64,000 nucleotides of DNA, from positions 9,300,001 through 9,364,000 of the forward strand of contig NZ_CP092497.1 of the NCBI RefSeq assembly GCF_022479115.1. Direction: 5' to 3'. Positions within the stretch are counted from its first letter, which is position 1; every line of letters starts with the position of its first letter. The stretch comes from Amycolatopsis sp. EV170708-02-1. GTDB taxonomy: Bacteria; Actinomycetota; Actinomycetes; Mycobacteriales; Pseudonocardiaceae. A model generated the notes under the pieces. The model was not told where the DNA came from and did no database searches. It saw only the letters and a program-made list of their open reading frames with translations. Position numbers and translations under genes: made by a program. Below, one piece after another: positions 45,733 through 51,730 of this stretch.

Positions 45733-46904
45733 GTGAGTGCACGGGAATGGATCGGTAAGGACTTCTACCGTGAACTGGGCGTCTCCTCCGACGCCACCGC
45801 GGACGAGATCAAGAAGGCGTACCGCAAGCTCGCCAAGGAGAACCACCCCGACGCCAACGCGGGCAACGCGGAGGCCGAGAAGAAGTTCAAGGCGGTCTCC
45901 GAGGCGTACGGCGTGCTGTCCGACACGTCCAAGCGCAAGGAGTACGACGAGGCTCGCCGCCTCTTCGGCTCCGGCGGTCCCGGTGGCTTCGGCTTCCCGG
46001 GCGGTGGTGGCGGCGGCGGTTTCGACGTCGGCGACATCTTCGGCCAGGCGGGTCAGCAGCAGGGCGGCTTCGGCGGTCTCGGCGACATCCTCGGCGGGCT
46101 GTTCGGCCGCCGCGGCGCCGCGGCCGGTGCCACGGCGAACCGGCCGCAACGCGGCGCGGACGTGGAGACCGACGTCCGGATCGATTTCGCCGAGGCGGTC
46201 AAGGGCGCGACCCTGCCGCTGCGGCTGTCGAGCCCGGCGACCTGTTCCACCTGCGGTGGCAACGGCGCGAAACCGGGGACTTCCCGAGGACGTGCGCGAC
46301 CTGCCAGGGCAGCGGGCTGGTCAGCCGCAGCCAGGGCGCGTTCGCGTTCTCCGAGCCGTGCCGTGACTGCCGCGGCCGCGGGAAGATCATCGACGACCCG
46401 TGCCCGGAATGCGCGGGCGAGGGCGTCAGCACCCGCACCCGCACCCTGACCGTGCGGATCCCGCCGGGCGTCGCCGACGACCAGCGAATCCGGCTGGCGG
46501 GCCAGGGCGAACCGGGCCGTGGCGGGGCGCAGCCGGGCGATCTGTACGTCCGGGTGCACGTCGCTCCGCACACGTTGTTCGGGCGCAAGGACCTCGACCT
46601 GACGATCACCGTGCCGGTGTCCTTCGCGGAGCTGGCCCTCGGCGGCACGATCACCGTGCCGACGCTCGAGGGCAAGGTCTCGCTGAAGGTGCCGCAAGGT
46701 ACGGCGAGCGGTCGCGTGCTTCGCGTGCGCGGCAAGGGAATCGCGAAGCGTGACGGCTCGCAGGGCGATCTGCTGGTCACCTTGCAGGCGGCCATTCCGG
46801 CCAAACTGGACGACAAGGCCCGTGAAGCGCTGGAGGCCTACGCGGAGGCCATGGCCGGCCACGACCCGCGACCGGAGATCACCGAACTTCTCGAAGGCAG
46901 GTGA
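45733..46904 (+). CDS. dnaJ: DnaJ chaperone, interrupted by a one-base frameshift
   Basis: GTG 45733 start, 33 nt after grpE. The first frame gives the J-domain (DFYRELGVSSDATADEIKKAYRKLAKENHPD, HPD present), the Gly/Phe region and the first zinc repeat CSTCGGNGAKPGTS. At 46283-46285 a run of three C appears one short: reading with an extra C restores PRTCATCQGSG, CRDCRGRG and CPECAGEG, the missing three CxxCxGxG repeats, and the substrate domain to 46904. Without correction the product is 238 aa with a nonsense tail from 46286. Because the operon is otherwise intact and hspR overlaps the dnaJ stop, a base-calling error or very recent mutation is most likely. Corrected length about 391 aa. 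Confidence 0.9.
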
Positions 46905-47468: not shown

Positions 47469-48065
47469 TCACTGGCCGGGCACCAGGGTCCGGATCTGCT
47501 GGACCTCGCCGGTGCGCGAGTCCTGGATCCGCTGCGCCAGCGCCTTCGACTCGGGGTTCTTCCCGTCCTTCAGCTCGGTCCTCGCCAGCGCGACCCCGTT
47601 GTGCTGGTGCGCGACGAAGATGTCCGCGAAGTCGAGGCTGAACTCCGCACCATCCTTTTTGGACAGTGCTTCGAGCAGTCCCTTGTCGGTGAGCCCGTCG
47701 CCGCCGTGATGGTGGTGCGCGTGCGGATCGGCCGAACCCGTCTCGGGTTTGCCCCAGGCCTTGAGCCAGTTCCGCATGTCGGTGGTCTCGGTCTGCTGCG
47801 TCGCCTCGATCGCGGCCGCGAGATCCTTGAGCTCCTGTTTCTGCGCCTGCTTGGTCTTGACCAGCTTGACGATCTCCACGCCCTGATTGTTGTGGGCGAT
47901 CATCATCTGCAGGAACATCACGTCGGCGTCGTTGTACTCCGCGGACGCCCCGGCCGACTGGGGGACGGGGGAGAGCGGGGCGCCCGCGGTACCTGGTGAG
48001 CCGTCGCCGGCCCCGCAGCCCGCGAGGGCCACGAGACCGGCGACGAGAACGAGGGCCAGCTTCAC
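47469..48065 (-). CDS. DUF305 lipoprotein with His cluster, possible copper-binding protein
   Basis: 198 aa from GTG 48065, overlapping the LPMO stop by 4 nt. Signal MKLALVLVAGLVA with lipobox LAGC. The DUF305 four-helix domain follows: YNDADVMFLQMMIAHNNQGVEIVKLV and, later, DFADIFVAHQHNGVALARTEL, each with the characteristic Met/His pattern (MMIAHN, VAHQHN). Between them is a metal-site-like stretch ADPHAHHHHGGDG. DUF305 proteins are often found with copper handling genes. Coupling to a copper-dependent LPMO suggests it stores or delivers copper outside the membrane (inference). Confidence 0.85.
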   Translation of the reverse strand: MKLALVLVAGLVALAGCGAGDGSPGTAGAPLSPVPQSAGASAEYNDADVMFLQMMIAHNNQGVEIVKLVKTKQAQKQELKDLAAAIEATQQTETTDMRNWLKAWGKPETGSADPHAHHHHGGDGLTDKGLLEALSKKDGAEFSLDFADIFVAHQHNGVALARTELKDGKNPESKALAQRIQDSRTGEVQQIRTLVPGQ

Positions 48066-48814
48066 TGCCGGGTCCACAGCGCGGGGGTGTTCGGCGGTTC
48101 CCAGCCCTGGATCGCCGTATGCGCCATCTGGCACCGGTAGGTGACGCCGCCGTAGGTCACCGTGCTGCCGACCGTGTACGCCGTCCCGGCCGCCCAGGTG
48201 CCGCCGGTGGGCGGGTTGGCGGTGCTGGTCGGCGGGTTCGAGGTCGTGGGCGGGTTGCTGGTGGTCGGCGGGTTGCTCGTGGTGGGCGGGTTGCCACCGC
48301 CGATCTGCAGGTCGATGCAGCTGTAGAAGGCCATCGGCGTATCCGCGATGTTCCACACGGCGAGCACCTTCTGGCGACCGCTGAAGCCGTTGAGGCTCAC
48401 CGTGTGCGACGTCGGGTCCTTCGGCGCGGAGTTGTTCCCGCTGATGTCGGCGATCTTGGTGCCGCCGATGTAGTACTCGTAGTTCGTGGTGCGGTGGTAG
48501 GCGGTGAACTTCCAGTTGAAGGTCACGCTGTTGCCGACCGACGCGGCGGGCCACGGCTTCGACTCGTCGTTGAGCTCGGCGAACTGGGGAAGCCCGCCGT
48601 TGCAGCTGCGGAGGCCCTTGGGGCCTTCGACGCTCTGGGGTTCGTAGACGATGCTGCCGCAGCCGGACACCTTGCCTTGGGCGCAGTTCGCCTGGCGGCT
48701 GGGCGGGGACAGCACGTAGCCGTGGGCGCTGGCCACCTGCGGGACTGCCACGATGGCGATCGGGGCGAGGATCGCACCGGCGGCGGCTGCCACGAGCTTG
48801 CGTTTGACGGTCAT
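48062..48814 (-). CDS. Secreted AA10 lytic polysaccharide monooxygenase with CBM5/12
   Basis: 250 aa from ATG 48814, with AGGAG 6 nt upstream. The signal ends at VASA, so the mature enzyme starts HGYVLSPPSRQANC; the N-terminal His is half of the copper histidine brace. The second His lies in FKFTAYHRTTNYEYYI-like sequence (reads WKFTAYHRTTNYEYYI). Two disulfide-type Cys pairs are present. A Pro/Thr linker with four NPPTTS repeats leads to a C-terminal CBM5/12 (WAAGTAYTVGSTVTYGGVTYRC, ending ALWTRQ). Oxidative cleavage of chitin or cellulose; the CBM5/12 favours chitin. Its gene is coupled to the DUF305 lipoprotein. Confidence 0.93.
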   Translation of the reverse strand: MTVKRKLVAAAAGAILAPIAIVAVPQVASAHGYVLSPPSRQANCAQGKVSGCGSIVYEPQSVEGPKGLRSCNGGLPQFAELNDESKPWPAASVGNSVTFNWKFTAYHRTTNYEYYIGGTKIADISGNNSAPKDPTSHTVSLNGFSGRQKVLAVWNIADTPMAFYSCIDLQIGGGNPPTTSNPPTTSNPPTTSNPPTSTANPPTGGTWAAGTAYTVGSTVTYGGVTYRCQMAHTAIQGWEPPNTPALWTRQ

Positions 48815-48974: not shown

Positions 48975-50216
48975 TCAGTCCAGGGTGAAGGGGTCGTACT
49001 TGATCCGCGCCAGATCCGTGCCCGCGGCGAGCAGTTTCGCGATCGTCGCCCTGATCATCGACGGCGACCCGGCGACGTACACGTCGCGCTCCTGCCAAGC
49101 ACCGCGCTGCGTGACCGCCGTGGCCAGCGTGCCGCGGTCGCCGCCGGCGATGGTGCCTTCCTCGGTCACCGGGGTCACCGTCAGCCAAGGGCAGGTGACG
49201 GTCAGCCCGCGGAGCTCGTCGAGGGCGTAGAGGTCCTCGGGGCGACGGCCGCCGAAGAACAGGTGGACCGGCGGATTGTTCTTCCAGCGCGACATGTCGT
49301 CGAGCAGGGCGAGCAGCGGCGCGACGCCGGTGCCGCCGCCGATCATCAGCAGCGGACGGCTTTCCGTGTGGTGCACCGAAAGCGCGCCCAGCGACGGGCC
49401 GAGGCGCCAGACGTCGCCGCGCCGGGTGTGGTGGACGATCGCGCGCGAGACCCACCCTCCGCGCACGGCGTGCACATGGAACTCCATCGTCCCGTCGTCG
49501 TGCGGCGCGGTGGCGGGCGAGAAGTACCGCCACATCCGCGGCCGCTGCGGCACTTCGACGCTGACGTAACCGCCGGCCCGGTACGGGAGCGGCTGATCGG
49601 TGCGCACCTTGATCACGGCGACGTCGCGGGTGGCGAGCCGGTGCTCGACGACGGTCGCCTTCCACCACGCGGGCCCGATCTCCTTGCCCGCGGCCTCGCG
49701 CATGGTCTTCGAAATGACGCCGTACGCGGTCACCCAGGCGTCTTCCACCTCGGGAGTCCAGTCGTCCTTCAAGAACCTTTTCAACGCGGCGATCAGCGCG
49801 ACACCGACGGCGTCGTAATGACGGCCGAGGACGTCGAACTTCCGGTGGTCCCGGCCCAGCTGGCCGAGGAACGTGACCAGTTCGTCGGGCCGGTCCACCA
49901 TCTGGACGACGTAGACCAGTGCGCGCAGCAAACGATTTCGCTGCGTGGCCATGTTTATCGGGAACAACGCCCTGGCGTCCGGCGAAACGGAGAAGAGCAC
50001 GCCGTAGAAGTACTGGGACAGCGCCTCGGCTTTCGTTTCGACGGCGGCGAAACTCTCCCTGATGAGCTTGGCCATCTCGACGGTCTTGTCCGCCGACGGT
50101 GTTTCGATCAAGGGCGGGACGGGGATCGGTGAAGATCTCGAAGGACTCGGCGGATGCTCGTCCTTCACTGTTTCGGCAGTCATGGGTGAACGATTTTCTC
50201 CAGTTGGATCGGGCAT
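48975..50216 (-). CDS. Type II flavohemoprotein (globin-FAD-NAD reductase), copy 1
   Basis: 413 aa from ATG 50216, chosen for GGAG 6 nt upstream. The globin domain shows SQYFYGVLFSVSPDARALFPINM (Tyr B10, Phe CD1) and LGRDHRKFDVLGRHYDAVG with the proximal His. The FAD part has MWRYFSPATAPHDDG, a variant of the usual RxYS, and the NAD domain has LLMIGGGTGVAPLLALLDD and VYVAGSPSMIRATIAKLLAAG. M. tuberculosis Rv0385, a type II flavohemoglobin next to clpB, is the likely orthologue; it is reported to act on D-lactate rather than detoxify NO. A tandem paralogue is 309 nt upstream. Confidence 0.88.
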   Translation of the reverse strand: MPDPTGENRSPMTAETVKDEHPPSPSRSSPIPVPPLIETPSADKTVEMAKLIRESFAAVETKAEALSQYFYGVLFSVSPDARALFPINMATQRNRLLRALVYVVQMVDRPDELVTFLGQLGRDHRKFDVLGRHYDAVGVALIAALKRFLKDDWTPEVEDAWVTAYGVISKTMREAAGKEIGPAWWKATVVEHRLATRDVAVIKVRTDQPLPYRAGGYVSVEVPQRPRMWRYFSPATAPHDDGTMEFHVHAVRGGWVSRAIVHHTRRGDVWRLGPSLGALSVHHTESRPLLMIGGGTGVAPLLALLDDMSRWKNNPPVHLFFGGRRPEDLYALDELRGLTVTCPWLTVTPVTEEGTIAGGDRGTLATAVTQRGAWQERDVYVAGSPSMIRATIAKLLAAGTDLARIKYDPFTLD

Positions 50217-50524: not shown

Positions 50525-51730
50525 CTAGTCGATGGTGAAGGGGTCGTACGCGATCTGGTCGAGCGCGCTGCCCGCGACCAGCATCCGGGACACCGTCGCC
50601 CGGATCATCGCGGGCGAACCGGCGACGAGGATCCGGTGTCCCGGCCAGGATCCTTGCTGCGTAACGGCTTCCGCGAGGGTGCCCTGCACGCAGCCGGGAG
50701 CTTCCTCACCGTGCTCGACCACCGGGGTCACGGTGAGCCACGGGTTCGTGGCCGCCAGGGCGCGCAACTCGTCGAGGTCGTAGAGGTCCTCACGCGACGG
50801 TCCGCCGTAGAACAACTGGACCTTCGGGTTCTCGCCCCACTGCGCGAGGTCGTCCAGGATGGCGCGCAGCGGCGCGATCCCGGTGCCGCCCGCGATCATC
50901 AGGACGCCGCGGCCGTCGGTCCGGTCGACCGAAAGCCTGCCGAGCGGCGGTCCGAGCCGCCAGACGTCGCCGGGCTGCGTGTGGCTCACGATGGCGCGCG
51001 ACACCCAGCCGCCGTCGACCGCCCGCACGTGGAACTCGATGCCGCCGTCCTCGCGCGGCGCGTTCGCCGGCGAAAGGTAGCGCCAGAGCCTCGGCCGCTG
51101 CGGTACTTCGACGCTCATGTACTGGCCGGGCTGGTACGGCACCGGGAATTCGGGCTGGACGCGGACCAGGGCGAGATCCCAGGTGAGCCGCCGGTGTTCG
51201 AGGACGGTCGCCGACCACGACGCCGGGTTGACGTCGGCCGCGGCGGCCTCCTGCATCGCGCGGGCGACGATGGTGAACGCCTCCGCCCAGGCCCGTTCGA
51301 CCTCGGGTGTCCAGTCCGGACCGAGGTGGTTCTTGAGCGAGGCGAGCAACGCGGTGCCGACGGCCTCGTAGTGCCGCGGGATGACGCCGAACTTGCGGTG
51401 GTCGCGGCCGAGCTGGGTCAGGAACGGGACGAGATCGTCCGGCCGGTCGACCATCTGCACGATGTGCACCAGCGCGCGGACCAGCCTGCCGCGCTGGACC
51501 TCCATGTTGATCGGGAAGAAGTCGCGGGTGGCGGGCGCGAGGGTGAACAGCATCCCGTAGAAGAACTGCGAGATCTCCGGGATGAAGGGTTCCGACTTCG
51601 CCCAGGTGTCCCGGATGAGCCGCACCATCGCGGTGACCGCGGGCGGGGCTTCACGCGGCGCCGAAGACCGCGGGACCGGGCTGACCGCGTCGGCCGTCAC
51701 GGGCTGGGAGTCGCTGATCGGGAAGCGCAT
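50525..51730 (-). CDS. Type II flavohemoprotein (globin-FAD-NAD reductase), copy 2
   Basis: 401 aa from ATG 51730. Same architecture as copy 1: SQFFYGMLFTLAPATRDFFPINM, LGRDHRKFGVIPRHYEAVG (proximal His), LWRYLSPANAPREDG, VLMIAGGTGIAPLRAILDD and ILVAGSPAMIRATVSRMLVAG. Both copies end YDPFT(L/I)D. The two differ most at the N-terminus, so they may respond to different signals. It is divergent from a MarR gene with a perfect TTGTAC palindrome between, so MarR control is plausible. Confidence 0.88.
   Translation of the reverse strand: MRFPISDSQPVTADAVSPVPRSSAPREAPPAVTAMVRLIRDTWAKSEPFIPEISQFFYGMLFTLAPATRDFFPINMEVQRGRLVRALVHIVQMVDRPDDLVPFLTQLGRDHRKFGVIPRHYEAVGTALLASLKNHLGPDWTPEVERAWAEAFTIVARAMQEAAAADVNPASWSATVLEHRRLTWDLALVRVQPEFPVPYQPGQYMSVEVPQRPRLWRYLSPANAPREDGGIEFHVRAVDGGWVSRAIVSHTQPGDVWRLGPPLGRLSVDRTDGRGVLMIAGGTGIAPLRAILDDLAQWGENPKVQLFYGGPSREDLYDLDELRALAATNPWLTVTPVVEHGEEAPGCVQGTLAEAVTQQGSWPGHRILVAGSPAMIRATVSRMLVAGSALDQIAYDPFTID

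Follow-up and report, generated by a model that had tools for sequence, protein, structure and literature searches.

How does a secreted LPMO come by its copper? In the accessible part of a study of Streptomyces, the copper acquisition of a secreted LPMO is stated to be unknown (PMC9040799). The question is raised again by a locus of Amycolatopsis sp. EV170708-02-1, lying in a 64,000-nucleotide stretch of its genome that is referred to here, as a whole, as the window. At this locus the gene for an AA10 LPMO, predicted to be a secreted copper enzyme acting on chitin-like polymers, runs into the gene for a DUF305 lipoprotein (Table 1). We found no report of a DUF305-LPMO pair in the literature on DUF305, on DUF305 with chitin or on LPMO copper supply, a search in which subscription journals are thinly covered; one apparent match for DUF305 with LPMO concerns DUF3050, not DUF305.

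The genomic comparisons described below establish that the gene pair is widely conserved and that the LPMO-linked DUF305 proteins form a subfamily of their own, and a functional link between the LPMO and the linked DUF305 protein is strongly supported. Copper handling by the linked protein is likely by analogy with the family to which it belongs, and our best single guess at what it does would be to load copper, ahead of scavenging it or tethering the enzyme.

The gene pair and its products

The LPMO has a catalytic domain that places it in AA10 (PF03067, LPMO_10; 83.0 bits against a cut-off of 23) and a CBM_5_12 module (64.0 bits against a cut-off of 26.2). Its signal peptide, as judged by eye, ends in ASA immediately before HGYV, so that the predicted mature N-terminus is His31; the second brace residue is His107 (H77 of the mature protein). 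Mature residues H1, H77, F133 and Y134 are invariant among 15 aligned LPMOs, in agreement with a predicted His brace and axial Phe, and we take H1 and H77 to be the brace and F133 to be the axial Phe. The best match in the PDB is 5aa7 (E 9.6e-37), presumably JdLPMO10A, although the chain is named 'chitinase'. The two proteins have the catalytic domain and the His brace residues in common, but the 142 residues of the 5aa7 chain comprise just the catalytic domain, whereas the window LPMO also has a CBM5/12 module and a DUF305 partner.

The downstream product is a member of the DUF305 family (PF03713, 120.9 bits against a cut-off of 27). Its lipobox, LAGC17 by eye, would anchor it through Cys17, and it would thus meet the LPMO outside the membrane, in line with the original prediction. 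The GTGA overlap that had been described between the LPMO stop and the DUF305 start was confirmed. An alternative GTG start lies 12 nt further upstream and is preferred by the start-choosing script; we favour the start within GTGA because eight relatives with a gap of 10-13 nt between the genes (L013, L018, L019, L022 and L024-L027) begin at the equivalent of its VKL/VKF. The motifs MMIAHN, VAHQHN and ADPHAHHHHGG, to which attention had been drawn, are all present in the protein.

Table 1. Positions in the window of the gene pair, its overlap, the candidate metal site and neighbouring genes.
Feature	Position	Strand	Remarks
DUF305 lipoprotein	47469..48065	minus	GTG start, 198 aa; LPMO-linked subfamily
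Linker motif H117-x-x-H120-G-G, codons (HHHHGG here)	47700..47717	minus	near-invariant candidate metal site
GTGA overlap, LPMO stop and DUF305 start	48062..48065	minus	TGA 48064-48062, GTG 48065-48063
AA10 LPMO	48062..48814	minus	ATG start, 250 aa; LPMO_10 catalytic domain, Pro/Thr linker, CBM5/12
dnaJ (dnaK-grpE-dnaJ-hspR cluster)	45733..46904	plus	frameshift-split
Flavohaemoprotein-like gene	48975..50111	minus	globin, FAD- and NAD-binding
Flavohaemoprotein-like gene	50525..51730	minus	globin, FAD- and NAD-binding

Conservation within Amycolatopsis

The window genome, a single contig of 9.66 Mb, contains three LPMO_10 and six DUF305 matches, and at six matches in 9.66 Mb any given gene has a chance of about 3e-5 of being followed within 100 nt by the start of a same-strand DUF305 gene. 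Eighty Amycolatopsis genomes, this one included, were searched with each protein. Among the matches listed, a same-strand DUF305 gene lies directly downstream of 51 of the 52 full-length, CBM-bearing LPMO orthologues, the sole exception being a locus in G028 that has the CBM and lacks the DUF305 gene. At that locus (L121) a second CBM5/12-bearing gene is found on the opposite strand just upstream of the unpaired LPMO. Both genes are cut by contig ends in G023, where their order is compatible with a pair, and in G004 the DUF305 gene adjoins a different AA10 gene (L120). The top 52 DUF305 rows from these genomes all adjoin AA10; the lower rows were entered in part.

LPMO paralogues without a CBM behave differently. 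At 16 paralogue loci chosen by hand from the listed LPMO rows (L124-L139, one in each of 16 genomes), CBM5/12 was present in none and a DUF305 gene was found within about 5 kb in none. These loci provide a stronger control than a comparison of rows, in which none of 98 further LPMO rows among the matches listed had an adjoining DUF305 gene, a weak result given that about the first 90 DUF305 rows were compared.

The original prediction was that the two genes are translationally coupled. The spacing in 83 linked rows, measured from starts picked by a script and therefore perhaps wrong in individual cases, comprises 24 overlaps, 11 gaps of 0-30 nt, 35 of 31-100 nt and 10 in which the DUF305 gene lies farther downstream; two rows are divergent and one is not callable. 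The overlap occurs in 21 of 31 Amycolatopsis rows as against 3 of 52 rows outside the genus. The overlap is common in the genus and rare outside it, and tight GTGA coupling was rejected as a conserved trait beyond the genus; because it is mostly confined to Amycolatopsis, it is adjacency that constitutes the conserved trait.

Recurrence of the pair in other families

In a scan of named, GTDB-based contigs, of which the best 80 of 107 qualifying stretches were analysed, a DUF305 gene was present in the fetched flank of the LPMO at 44 loci and absent at 36. The positive loci belong to Pseudonocardiaceae (25), Streptosporangiaceae (9) and Micromonosporaceae (10). They represent Amycolatopsis, Saccharothrix, Actinokineospora, Kibdelosporangium, Umezawaea and one further member of Pseudonocardiaceae, together with Herbidospora, Sphaerisporangium, Planomonospora, Micromonospora, Dactylosporangium, Catellatospora, Salinispora, Catenuloplanes, Paractinoplanes and Phytohabitans. 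The negative loci are from Nonomuraea-type genomes (25, including L115, which ends 20 nt past the LPMO match and where the presence of a DUF305 gene cannot be judged), Rhizohabitans, Planomonospora (3), Sphaerisporangium (1), Bailinhaonella, Spirilliplanes, Nocardia (2) and Micromonospora (2). At 13 of the DUF305-less loci, those with genes listed, no consistent replacement gene was seen, the next genes being DoxX, TspO-like (by eye), unrelated or convergent. Adjacency beyond this one strain, on which the original prediction had made itself depend, is therefore borne out both within the genus and across three families.

The AA10 LPMOs concerned fall into two clades whose catalytic domains share about 25% identity, and both are paired with DUF305; members of the second clade with a partner are found at L120, L172, L173, L174, L176, L180 and L196-L199. 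Several genomes carry paralogous pairs, three each in G448, G386 and G338 and two each in G230, G134 and G354. The pair is divergent in Phytohabitans (L099 and L119). At L110 and L114, more than one LPMO-type gene lies ahead of a single DUF305 gene. A tree (97/86) suggested that, in Phytohabitans, a partner of the clade-II kind had come to be paired with an LPMO of clade I; this was rejected as not significant (p-AU 0.337).

When the flanking genes of 36 loci with 31 labels were clustered using a simple gene caller, the DUF305 cluster spanned 31 labels, the LPMO cluster 25 (the caller drops the LPMO at overlapping frames, and clade-II enzymes may fall outside this cluster) and the most widespread of the other clusters 7. 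A larger conserved syntenic block was rejected on these figures, and some clade-II loci do share flanks (L172, L173, L174, L198 and L199). The same data bear on the suggestion that the genes are chance neighbours, or a two-gene block that hitch-hikes with no functional link. Common ancestry alone could hold two genes together within one genus, but it accounts poorly for a pair that is found in three families with changing flanks and in a second AA10 clade, that is repeated within genomes, that turns divergent in Phytohabitans and whose DUF305 member persists in trans, as described below. We regard a chance association as highly improbable.

A separate subfamily of DUF305 proteins

A profile (A1) built from 18 linked DUF305 proteins was run on 394 genomes of the class, and 40 places together with the window were read among the matches listed. 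The 19 top-scoring places (at least 193.8 bits) all have a same-strand AA10 gene upstream within about 450 nt; among the matches listed, the other 22 places read have an AA10 gene upstream in one case only (L180, 175.4 bits). This ranking favours linked proteins, since the profile was built from linked ones and some of these came from genomes that were then searched. A tree that is independent of A1, made with 61 DUF305 proteins (43 linked-type and 18 unlinked) chosen from 119, placed the linked and unlinked proteins on the two sides of a single branch with support of 100/100. The 43 linked-type members include two orphans, L200 and L201, that have no adjoining LPMO gene.

AA10 is present in 119 of the 394 genomes, and among the matches listed a linked-type DUF305 protein was read in 13, all of them among those 119; these 13 genomes are related and do not represent 13 independent cases. 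The linked-type protein is thus not generally required by AA10 enzymes. The genomes of 20 of the 36 negative loci were then searched for a linked-type DUF305 gene in trans, with three positive genomes as controls in which the paired DUF305 genes were recovered; typing relied mainly on the best-scoring place in each genome, with the HQ and SR diagnostics judged by eye. A linked-type gene was found elsewhere in 18 of the 20 genomes with a bare LPMO locus. Five adjoin another AA10 gene (L210, L211, L213, L221 and G481, in which two places, L197 and L175, were read), 12 are orphans with no LPMO gene within about 5 kb and one lies at a contig end (L226). Bailinhaonella and Nocardia acididurans have an LPMO and, at the best-scoring place, an ordinary DUF305 gene. 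Comparison of L213 with L212 and L214 gives a picture that looks like the loss of an LPMO from a pair.

Six of the seven orphans with neighbours listed (L216, L218, L220, L222, L223 and L200, with a Pfam check on L216 only) have as neighbours a regulator gene of the GntR type and genes of a sugar ABC transporter. A link to the uptake of polysaccharide-derived sugars is possible.

Residues kept and lost in the linked proteins

We compared 84 linked rows (the 83 paired rows and L123, at a contig edge) with 33 unlinked ones, leaving out L200 and L201; the percentages that follow are unweighted for relatedness, and 19 of the linked rows are the window protein and its near relatives. MMIAHN and VAHQHN had been thought to be made for metal binding. 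They are instead degraded remnants of the HH motifs of ordinary DUF305 proteins, with one His replaced in each. In the first helix motif, H58 is found in 86% of linked rows as against 100% of unlinked ones, and H59 in 44% as against 100%; in the second, H153 is found in 85% as against 97%, and Gln occupies position 154 in 98% of linked rows, where 94% of unlinked ones have His. Both remaining helix His residues, H58 and H153, are gone in a second Amycolatopsis clade (L029-L039). The mean number of Met residues per protein is 6.5 in the linked rows and 12.5 in the unlinked ones, while that of His is about equal (6.8 and 7.2, respectively).

In the ADPHAHHHHGG cluster, the other part of the metal-binding proposal, the HHHH run is a local feature, limited to 19 close rows that include the window, but the H117-x-x-H120-G-G motif within it is near-invariant, with H117 in 98%, H120 in 99%, G121 in 98% and G122 in 95% of the 84 linked rows; the residues between the two His vary. 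Among unlinked rows H117 is present in 64% and H120 in 88%. M54 (99%) and the lipobox Cys (98%) are also kept in the linked proteins. If the linked subfamily binds copper, the HxxHGG loop is the likely candidate site, and a preference for Cu(II) may be inferred because the loop is made up of His without Met or Cys.

Further positions distinguish the two groups: position 184 is Arg in 99% of linked rows and Gln in 97% of unlinked ones, T126 (92%) stands against Met (82%) and G62 (95%) against Ala (94%). R184, T126 and G62 lie outside the metal motifs and separate linked from unlinked proteins as an interaction surface would, which is what might be expected of a partner that has no dealings with copper: the lipoprotein might be a four-helix bundle whose task is to tether, fold or position the CBM-bearing LPMO at the cell surface, or a ferritin-like tuner of peroxide. 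The dispensability of the helix His pairs agrees with such a role, as do the more distant fold neighbours of the structural model, which include Dps/ferritin-like proteins (E above 0.02). We nevertheless think it unlikely, for H117 and H120, unlike the variable residues between them, are retained in 98-99% of linked rows, and copper or silver is present in the solved structures of CopM and 7vw1.

Comparison with copper-binding relatives

The linked DUF305 protein is modelled with a pLDDT of 88.6 as a four-helix bundle that matches Streptomyces 2qf9, Deinococcus 3bt5 and CopM with Cu(II), Cu(I) or Ag, and so has the DUF305 fold. Against 7vw1, which contains cuprous ions, the structural match is weaker (E 0.07) and the sequence profile gives E 3.1e-11. 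The original prediction is upheld in so far as the partner belongs to a family in which solved structures contain bound copper.

CopM of Synechocystis (5fej, 5ffa-5ffe) resembles the window protein in its DUF305 fold (Foldseek E 5e-5 to 1e-3), in being exported and in the outline of its helix motifs. As far as the accessible part of its description goes (PMC4335983), CopM is Met-rich, has HH motifs, is encoded with the copMRS resistance genes and has a role in copper resistance; an apparent KD of 3.7e-16 is given for the binding of Cu(I) by the recombinant protein, and the preference for Cu(I) is ascribed to its many Met residues. The window protein, unlike CopM, has HN and HQ where two intact HH motifs would be expected and belongs to a group in which Met is halved; it has a lipobox and an LPMO neighbour and it scores 68.8 against a cut-off of 90 with the NCBIfam CopM model NF049983, a metallochaperone model that all 18 A1 members match at E<=1e-5. 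We do not file it as CopM, though it may work like CopM.

A second parallel is provided by copper-binding CBM2 modules that are tethered to cellulose-active LPMOs and are reported, in the accessible portion of that work, to bind free Cu(I) and to be protective (PMC12703677). The likeness lies in an auxiliary copper site tied to an LPMO, which here is a candidate site; the difference is that the MMH motif of the CBM2 system belongs to a tethered module, and the His-x-x-His loop here to a lipoprotein distinct from the enzyme. CopM and these CBM2 modules together lend weight to a protective role, in which the lipoprotein would capture copper lost from damaged or substrate-free LPMO at the cell surface and limit Fenton chemistry with no part in loading: CopM, a DUF305 protein that has been studied, acts in copper resistance (PMC4335983), the CBM2 modules protect (PMC12703677) and a protein anchored in the membrane would be well placed to shield the producer. 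The binding reported for CopM and CBM2 favours Cu(I), through Met in the case of CopM, however, and Met has been lost from the linked subfamily; moreover, a general guard need not adjoin particular LPMOs, nor form an LPMO-specific clade. We consider protection alone to be somewhat unlikely.

A DUF305 protein that is known as an elicitor, BAR11 of Saccharothrix yanglingensis, was considered as a possible LPMO-linked member and rejected because its composition, as given in the accessible part of its report, does not fit (PMC5900052). The stated amino-acid percentages and the 21 negative residues fit the fourth DUF305 protein of that genome, an ordinary one (L233, 63.7 bits), while the positive residues do not (25 stated, 15 found). 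BAR11 therefore provides no evidence on linked DUF305 proteins. In the window genome, two of five places with ordinary DUF305 paralogues (L001 and L003) are near Cation_efflux genes, one of them also near MerR.

What the pair may do

Sco belongs to a protein family other than DUF305. In Streptomyces it delivers copper outside the cytoplasm to a secreted copper enzyme, GlxA, and its use for LpmP is left as an open possibility in the accessible part of that report (PMC9040799); a comparable extracytoplasmic delivery is what we propose here for a different enzyme.

Our preferred explanation, to which we give about even weight for and against, is that certain AA10 LPMOs have in the DUF305 protein a dedicated accessory lipoprotein, which handles their copper at the outer face of the cytoplasmic membrane. 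The genes are adjacent and nearly always co-oriented, both products carry predicted export signals and the pair is met repeatedly, in several families and in two AA10 clades. The linked proteins form a separate subfamily in which Met has dropped by half and one His has mostly gone from each HH pair, with HxxHGG kept, and relatives in the DUF305 family (CopM; PDB 7vw1) are known to bind copper. The HxxHGG loop would hold copper, probably as Cu(II) given that it is based on His rather than Met, and would pass it to the apo-LPMO as the N-terminal His brace forms after cleavage of the signal peptide; the same loop could take back copper lost from a damaged enzyme. Delivery of copper to the LPMO, the central claim of the original prediction, is in this sense something that we infer. 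The more specific proposal, that the Met-rich Cu(I) character of CopM was traded for an HxxHGG Cu(II) loop in a dedicated loader of AA10 LPMOs outside the membrane, is one that we offer tentatively. If true, it would be, to our knowledge, the first metallochaperone specific to LPMOs.

Some findings count against these proposals. The reduction in Met, the HQ in place of the second HH, the loss of H58 and H153 from one Amycolatopsis clade and the score below the CopM cut-off speak against the preferred explanation. So do the 12 genomes in which a linked-type gene lies away from any LPMO gene (within about 5 kb), the regulator and sugar-transporter neighbours of six of the seven orphans, and the ordinary DUF305 genes at the best-scoring places of Bailinhaonella and Nocardia acididurans. 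In addition, the protein is not needed for loading in general, because the CBM-less LPMOs at the 16 paralogue loci and the LPMO of G028 lack one, and because AA10 is present in 119 of the class genomes against 13 with a linked-type protein read among the matches listed. The linked DUF305 protein is nonetheless a concrete and small candidate for LPMO copper supply, with a hypothesis that is focused on one motif (H117/H120), and this would matter for the making of fully copper-loaded, longer-lived LPMOs. Should its role be to guard and not to load, it would bear on how LPMO producers limit oxidative damage.

Other genes in the window

By gene names assigned by eye, a frameshift interrupts the dnaJ gene within the zinc-finger region, and the N-terminal part is read in a different frame from the remainder, reflecting either a real change or a sequencing error. 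The two neighbouring flavohaemoprotein-like genes are located just upstream of the LPMO gene and lie outside the conserved pair.
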